DNA of 11,533 nucleotides, taken from contig JACPQY010000019.1 of NCBI GenBank assembly GCA_016190245.1, positions 1-11,533 of the forward strand, written 5' to 3'. Below are positions 1-427 of this stretch, piece after piece. The notes below the pieces were generated by a model. The model was not told the origin of the DNA, made no database searches, and saw only the letters and a program-made list of their open reading frames with translations. A program made the translations under genes and the position numbers. Positions within the stretch are counted from its first letter, which is position 1, and the number at the start of each line of letters is the position of its first letter. Source of the DNA: Nitrospirota bacterium (lineage in GTDB: Bacteria; JACPQY01).

Positions 1-12
1 AGGATGGCATGG

Positions 13-58
13 GGCCATGATAGGTTGCGGCCCAGGAAGGGCCGCATGGAACATGGCC
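13..58. repeat. nested hairpin, copy 1
   Basis: Outer arms GGCCATG (13-19) and CATGGCC (52-58) enclose inner arms TGCGGCCC (26-33) and GGGCCGCA (39-46) with an AGGAA loop. Both stems are perfect. Six unpaired bases on the left (20-25) and five on the right (47-51) separate the two stems. The strand is undecided because the element is palindromic. Confidence 0.75.
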
Positions 59-128
59 TTCACGGGTGCGTCCGAACGATCCGCGGAAACATGCCAAAGG
101 CCAGCAGCCAAGGAACCACTTCCAATAG

Positions 129-193
129 CGTCCGAAGAAGCGGACCGACCTGCCCGCCGTACCAGCTCTGGCGGGTCGGAATCGGCCCCCACG
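129..193. repeat. dispersed repeat, copy A (matches 7140-7218)
   Basis: It shares CGTCCGAA, CGACCTGCCCGC, CTCTGGCGGGTCGGAATCG and CCCCACG with 7140-7218 in the same order and strand. The other copy carries an extra segment of about 14 bp. CCCGCC and GGCGGG form a hairpin around an 11-base loop. Confidence 0.75.
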
Positions 194-230
194 ACACGCC
201 TGTAGACGCACCTTGCCACGGAGGGCATGG

Positions 231-276
231 TGCCACGAGATGAAGCCCCGCAGGATGCGGGGCATGTAACGTGGCA
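231..276. repeat. nested hairpin, copy 2, covarying with copy 1
   Basis: Outer arms TGCCACG (231-237) and CGTGGCA (270-276) enclose GCCCCGCA (245-252) and TGCGGGGC (256-263) with a GGA loop. A further outer pair, GCATGG (225-230) and CCATGC (280-285), extends it. Compared with copy 1, five base pairs are exchanged on both sides, so pairing is kept while sequence changes. Confidence 0.75.
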
Positions 277-427
277 TTCCCATGCGTCCGGGACTGTGGA
301 GCGAGGGCGTGCAACGCCCCGCGGTCAGAATCGCCCCCTACACGGGCGTTCCACCCAAAGGGTGCGTGCGCCTCCGTCGGCGGTCACACCTTGTCAACGG
401 AATAAGGTTGCGCGTGCGCGACCCACC

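Follow-up and report, generated by a model that had tools for sequence, protein, structure and literature searches.

The stretch of DNA analysed here (the window, 11,533 nucleotides) is the start of contig C4 of a Nitrospirota bacterium metagenome-assembled genome (MAG; 86 contigs, 3.29 Mb), and its left end holds two copies of a small palindromic element (Table 1). The preliminary description of this locus aligned the segments 2-60 and 220-278 without gaps, and this alignment was reproduced at an offset of 218 with 16 differences within 13-60. The five double changes that keep pairing (13/58 G-C to T-A, 18/53 T-A to C-G, 29/43 and 30/42 G-C to C-G, and 32/40 C-G to G-C) were found as listed there, as was the loss of the 26/46 pair (T-A to A-A). 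With DNA parameters, each strand of each copy folded more stably than its dinucleotide-shuffled versions (z -3.0 to -5.5). The true unit includes an additional hairpin 5' of the nested one, which is whole in copy 2 at 209-232. Since the window begins inside copy 1, at the contig end, that copy has lost part of its first hairpin; its missing left end is visible in 12 other identical copies, with GGTAGCCGCACC or a close variant before it. The covariance-model match over copy 2 spans 206-281 with 89.4 bits. Both window copies are housed in hairpins with a GTAG foot, as judged for copy 1 from its identical sister copies. The GTAG foot is the hallmark of repetitive extragenic palindromic (REP) sequences; the element itself has none, and the host hairpins of the two window copies carry it, as do many other hosts.

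Table 1. Features of the two element copies and their host hairpins in the window (the caret marks the insertion point; G001 is the same-family genome compared).
Feature	Position	Strand	Basis or detail
Element copy 1, left end missing (contig start)	1..58	+	sequence, fold
Copy 1, loop A (AGGAT)	1-5	+	
Copy 1, 3' arm of hairpin A	6-12	+	
Copy 1, guide GG	13-14	+	
Copy 1, hairpin B	13-58	+	inner stem 27-33/39-45, loop AGGAA 34-38
Copy 1, right-end dinucleotide CC	57-58	+	
Host hairpin of copy 1, right arm TTCACGGGTGCG	59..70	+	empty host GTAGCCGCACCC^TTCACGGGTGC in G001
GTAG foot, REP-like host hairpin of copy 2	202..205	+	sequence; empty hosts GTAGGGACGCATTCCTATGCGTCC at L281:9853 and L139:278
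Host hairpin of copy 2, left arm GACGCA	205..210	+	pairs with 283-288; empty host known
Target dinucleotide CA, end of host left arm of copy 2	209-210	+	
Element copy 2, 66 bp, with CA 275-276 at its end	211..276	+	ends defined by empty host
Copy 2, hairpin A	209..232	+	arms 209-217/224-232, loop ACGGAG 218-223; covarying pairs
Copy 2, internal guide TG, reverse complement of CA 209-210 and CA 275-276	231..232	+	three-way covariation over 150 copies, permutation test
Copy 2, hairpin B	231..276	+	outer arms 231-237/270-276; covarying pairs, fold
Copy 2, hairpin B inner stem and loop AGGAT	245-251/257-263, loop 252-256	+	
Host hairpin of copy 2, right part TTCCCATGCGTC	277..288	+	empty host known

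The element belongs to a dispersed family. In a blastn search of the own genome, positions 1-62 matched 42 places, of which 13 were identical and many lay at contig ends, as a repeat that breaks the assembly would produce; the search with 206-286 gave 56 matches at partly shared places. The covariance model R1 found at least 119 matches in the own 3.3 Mb MAG and at least 91 in G001, the one same-family genome compared. These counts are lower bounds, as 150 candidates were scored per genome, and both counts and E-values depend on a model that includes the pairs of the border dinucleotides described below. The copies are spread over most contigs of the own genome, unlike the cassette array of integron attC sites. 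The family is known from two genomes, both drafts of a deep lineage; a search with EF-P gave best identities of only about 42%, to unrelated bacteria. The covariance model did not find it in 114 other genomes, those listed being related only at domain level. Scans for exact patterns in GTDB contigs and IMG/VR gave no match either, nor did distant blastn against plasmid and phage sets, the own and near genomes lying outside these sets. Many MAG contigs finish in or beside a copy (window position 1, and the ends of C82, C44, C24, C12, C46 and C37), so the repeat limits assembly. One inverted pair of copies with identical private mutations (C82:6132-6207 and C82:7201-7276; L032) surrounds a TetR-type-looking regulator gene, as if duplicated as a pair or locally converted by each other.

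The unit consists of two hairpins with GGA loops whose middle strand is common to both, with a length of about 66-70 bp. Hairpin A has 4+4 pairs with a T-T mismatch between them, and hairpin B has 5+7 pairs. In the alignment of 29 distinct copies (A2), 98.8% of the cells are paired, and two-sided changes occur at 10 of the 20 pairs (61 two-sided versus 3 one-sided cells). The covariation score was 0.327, versus 0.096 for shuffled alignments and at most 0.049 with the partner columns slid by 1-3. Pairing is thus preserved far beyond chance, and the genome search with a covariance model that the preliminary description had proposed yielded excess covariation and well over two copies. The stems vary, with 22 and 24 distinct forms, while GGA is retained in the loops (in 141 of the 149 short A loops and 123 of the 140 B loops), mostly as ANGGA or AGGA. 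Hairpin A also occurs alone, with no hairpin B, on the tips of other hairpins (e.g. CCATGCCGAGGACGGTATGG; L253, L254, L255 and L256), and the inner stem of hairpin B fits the hairpin A pattern in many G001 copies. The element may therefore derive from duplication of a single GGA hairpin.

The position and orientation of the copies bear on whether DNA or RNA is the folded form. Gene calls were codon-based and compared by eye with the window genes. The copies fall into 63 flank clusters, which are independent only approximately, and 59 of these lie outside called genes. In tandem gene contexts the GGA strand was sense in 12 cases and antisense in 13, and such random orientation makes a role in mRNA or as non-coding RNA unlikely. 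Among the imperfect pairs on the GGA strand, G.T outnumbered A.C (27 versus 10, p = 0.008, the incidences not being fully independent), which suggests that the GGA-carrying strand is the one that folds. The G.T excess, together with the lack of an orientation bias to genes, is suggestive of single-stranded DNA.

The kept GGA loops could also indicate a structured RNA or a dispersed repeat that binds CsrA/RsmA, with the two loops serving as CsrA sites or as a sponge. CsrA-binding RNAs of the CsrB/RsmZ type likewise have hairpin loops that contain GGA and share the loop motif, one csrA gene is present in the genome, and the Rfam family PrrB_RsmZ gave a sub-threshold match (16.2 bits versus 44 for gathering, E 0.17). 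However, the Rfam search had no match at the gathering score, the GGA strand shows no preference for the sense of neighbouring genes, and the copies are inserted DNA dispersed in both orientations. Clean insertion into host hairpins and nesting, described below, are traits of mobile DNA. The CsrA sponge was rejected as improbable despite the GGA loops and the csrA gene. The preliminary description had left the choice between a structured RNA and a mobile palindromic repeat in which the fold counts for more than the sequence. The former alternative is not supported by the Rfam and orientation results; the latter is supported by the dispersed family, clean empty sites, nested insertions and covarying stems.

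The borders of the element carry a dinucleotide (XY, which is CC, CA, TC or TA), and its reverse complement stands between the two hairpins. This middle dinucleotide immediately precedes the palindrome of hairpin B on its 5' side; it can close hairpin A when paired with the left XY, and hairpin B when paired with the right one. Among 150 distinct copies from both genomes, the left, middle and right dinucleotides vary together as CC/GG/CC (72 copies), CA/TG/CA (22), TA/TA/TA (10) and TC/GA/TC (9). A guide 5' of a palindrome and complementary to the cleavage or target site is thus present, with two bases and four specificities. The guide matches the left XY at 56 of the 63 flank clusters, whereas permuted guides matched at 26.8 clusters on average and at no more than 40 in any of 20000 permutations. 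The left XY falls within the stem or loop of the host and also occurs in empty hosts. Because it belongs to the host, its agreement with the guide reflects target choice.

The element was removed in silico from CCTTGCC through the right XY, and the flanks were then joined. After joining, a stem of length 7 or more forms at 24 of the 63 flank clusters, versus 3.9 expected when right flanks were permuted among copies, and the mean stem is 5.87 versus 4.13 +- 0.16 for the permuted flanks. A stricter geometry for these hairpins had the same outcome. Examples of restored host hairpins are CCCTCTCCC^TTTCAGGGAGAGGG, GGGAGGACC^TTCAGGTCCTCCC, CGCAGGCCATC^CTGGCCTGCG and GCGGACATCC^TGTCCGC. Unoccupied hosts were found in the same genomes, including GTAGCCGCAGCC^TTCAGGCTGC, GTAGCCGCACCC^TTCACGGGTGC, CGGGCTNNAAGCC^CGCG and, for window copy 2, GTAGGGACGCA^TTCCTATGCGTCC; empty and filled hosts agree. 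The host hairpins restored on removal, and the intact hosts found without an element, indicate that insertion takes place 3' of XY inside hairpin loops. The hosts include REP-like hairpins with a GTAG foot, ordinary intergenic hairpins, and the element's own copies.

Nesting is frequent: 25 of 165 copies lie inside another copy, and 24 of the 25 are antisense to the enclosing copy. In the loop ATCCT, the other strand of AGGAT, the insertion point is ATCC^T for CC-type copies and ATC^CT for those of the TC type. In the internal loop, CA-type copies are found at CA^TTGCATGG and one TA-type copy at TA (L258). The nested copies are a natural test of the match between guide and target. Many copies are carried in hosts with a GTAG foot (flank clusters of 14, 17 and 24 members), and the copies are also spread as passengers of this host REP-like repeat.

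These passengers bring in another explanation, namely that the double changes are mutational and do not reflect selection on the fold. Template switching would correct each quasi-palindrome arm against its partner, and the copies would be mere passengers of amplifying REP-like repeats. The large clusters in GTAG-foot hosts fit this, and the great excess of two-sided over one-sided changes is what such correction predicts. However, neither the retention of GGA in the loops nor the excess of G.T over A.C is explained by it, nor are the match between host dinucleotide and guide and the 63 flank clusters. It is therefore considered unlikely as a full account, and part of the arm homogeneity may come from template-switch correction.

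Mobility could also be borne by RNA: the element RNA would enter the loops of other RNAs by guide pairing, as in reverse splicing, and would then be reverse transcribed. The strand-specific folding of the GGA strand, the guide pairing with the left flank and the insertion into loops are all compatible with this route, and an RNA route was suggested for the Allomyces double-hairpin elements in work that is cited in PMC2800124. Against it, the copies show no sense bias relative to transcription, and neither a catalytic core nor a reverse transcriptase was found linked to the copies, although no systematic search for either was made. This route is rated as slightly less probable still than the sponge or the template switching.

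The preferred reading is that both window hairpins are copies of a very small non-autonomous mobile DNA element, which works like the HUH elements of the IS200/IS605 and REP groups (probability roughly 0.75). The parts that concern a mobile element, its insertion into loops and its guide are held with strong confidence, while mobilisation by an HUH enzyme has about an even chance. The transposases of IS200/IS605 select their cleavage sites by pairing with a guide 5' of a palindrome (PMC8266576). The element resembles IS200/IS605 and its non-autonomous derivatives, which are similar to miniature inverted-repeat transposable elements, in the end hairpins on one strand, the internal guide 5' of the palindrome, and, as it appears, the insertion 3' of a short target. 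It differs in having a two-base guide and target, a single guide for both ends and a length of only about 66-70 bp, in targeting hairpin loops, and in that no transposase-bearing relative was found. By analogy, it can be regarded as the IS200/IS605 guide layout in miniature.

REP and REPIN sequences, which are associated with the RAYT transposases (REP-associated tyrosine transposases, TnpA_REP), are also dispersed intergenic palindromes. Their cleavage is at a dinucleotide such as CT or CA, which is guide-selectable in one system: one TnpA_REP cuts at CT or CA, and changes in its GTAG guide redirect it to CC or GA (PMC8266576). The hosts of the present family have the GTAG foot, whereas the element itself is without GTAG, has two hairpins, and is located inside REP-like hairpins. 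Fungal mitochondrial double-hairpin elements, GC clusters and sponge RHE are likewise very small, non-coding and mobile double or single hairpins that merge with one another, and the GC clusters of yeast mitochondria have AG or ACT repeats on their flanks (PMC4478555). In those elements the stems are kept and the loops are variable (PMC4478555, PMC2800124), whereas here the GGA loops are kept, the stems covary, and the guide matches the target.

Several observations weigh against the HUH-type reading. The dinucleotide rule is broken by CC/GA/CC (17 copies, nearly all one host context amplified as a composite), and the guide has only two bases, versus four in known systems. The XY at both ends is formally readable as a 2-bp target duplication; however, target duplication by itself would not produce agreement with an internal guide. 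No clear host hairpin is seen at about half of the flank clusters, and the tilt of the copies to the G-rich strand (46 to 29), taken from GC skew as a sign of replication-strand bias, is not significant. None of the 15 Y1 transposase genes (8 and 7 in the two genomes) is flanked by element copies, and the search through hairpin A alone for longer copies returned solo hairpins and nested copies with no cargo gene.

The covariance model over the 15 Y1 loci detected a single copy, about 0.7 kb beyond the L246 gene, and no RAYT gene flanked by element copies was found among these loci. The Y1 genes were rejected as carriers of the element, as the intact ones mostly have other inverted ends, e.g. 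GGGGTCAAG or GGGACGTTG. The longer Y1 genes (L067-L074, L246-L249 and L252; roughly 220-340 aa) mostly have their own terminal inverted repeats of these two kinds, and a C-terminal helix-turn-helix is apparent by eye in several of them. A short Y1 transposase gene of RAYT-like length (L250, 157 aa; G001 C5, ~35110-35430) has inverted GGGAGCATCT/AGATGCTCCC hairpins arrayed to its left and right, resembling the layout of a classical REPtron. The GTAGGGGAGCATCTTCAGATGCTCCC repeats are present in both genomes.

For the HUH-type element, the following mechanism is proposed. The GGA strand would be mobilised as single-stranded DNA by a Y1-type HUH transposase acting in trans, which would recognise the GGA hairpins. 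Guide pairing would pick both cleavage sites and hence the next target, as in IS200/IS605 and some TnpA_REP systems. Hairpin loops would serve as single-stranded targets for the excised GGA strand, and the copies would additionally multiply as passengers of host REP-like hairpins. It is conceivable, though held at somewhat less than an even chance, that the family represents a new class of minimal mobile DNA elements that act as single strands, with two GGA hairpins, one common two-base guide, and an enzyme not yet recognised. Such a class would target loops, including its own, and would switch specificity naturally (CC, CA, TC, TA) through the guide, its nested copies recording insertions one base apart in the same loop.

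Guide-directed target choice by HUH enzymes has so far been known mainly from biochemistry and engineered changes (e.g. PMC8266576). In the present family, guide switches appear to have arisen naturally as a series, each guide standing beside the target that it matches, and the same genome holds both occupied and empty sites. Each copy, at about 70 bases, is also a cheap test substrate. A mobile element residing in hairpin loops and inserting into its own copies would explain the origin of complex multi-hairpin intergenic regions, and of the assembly breaks found there.
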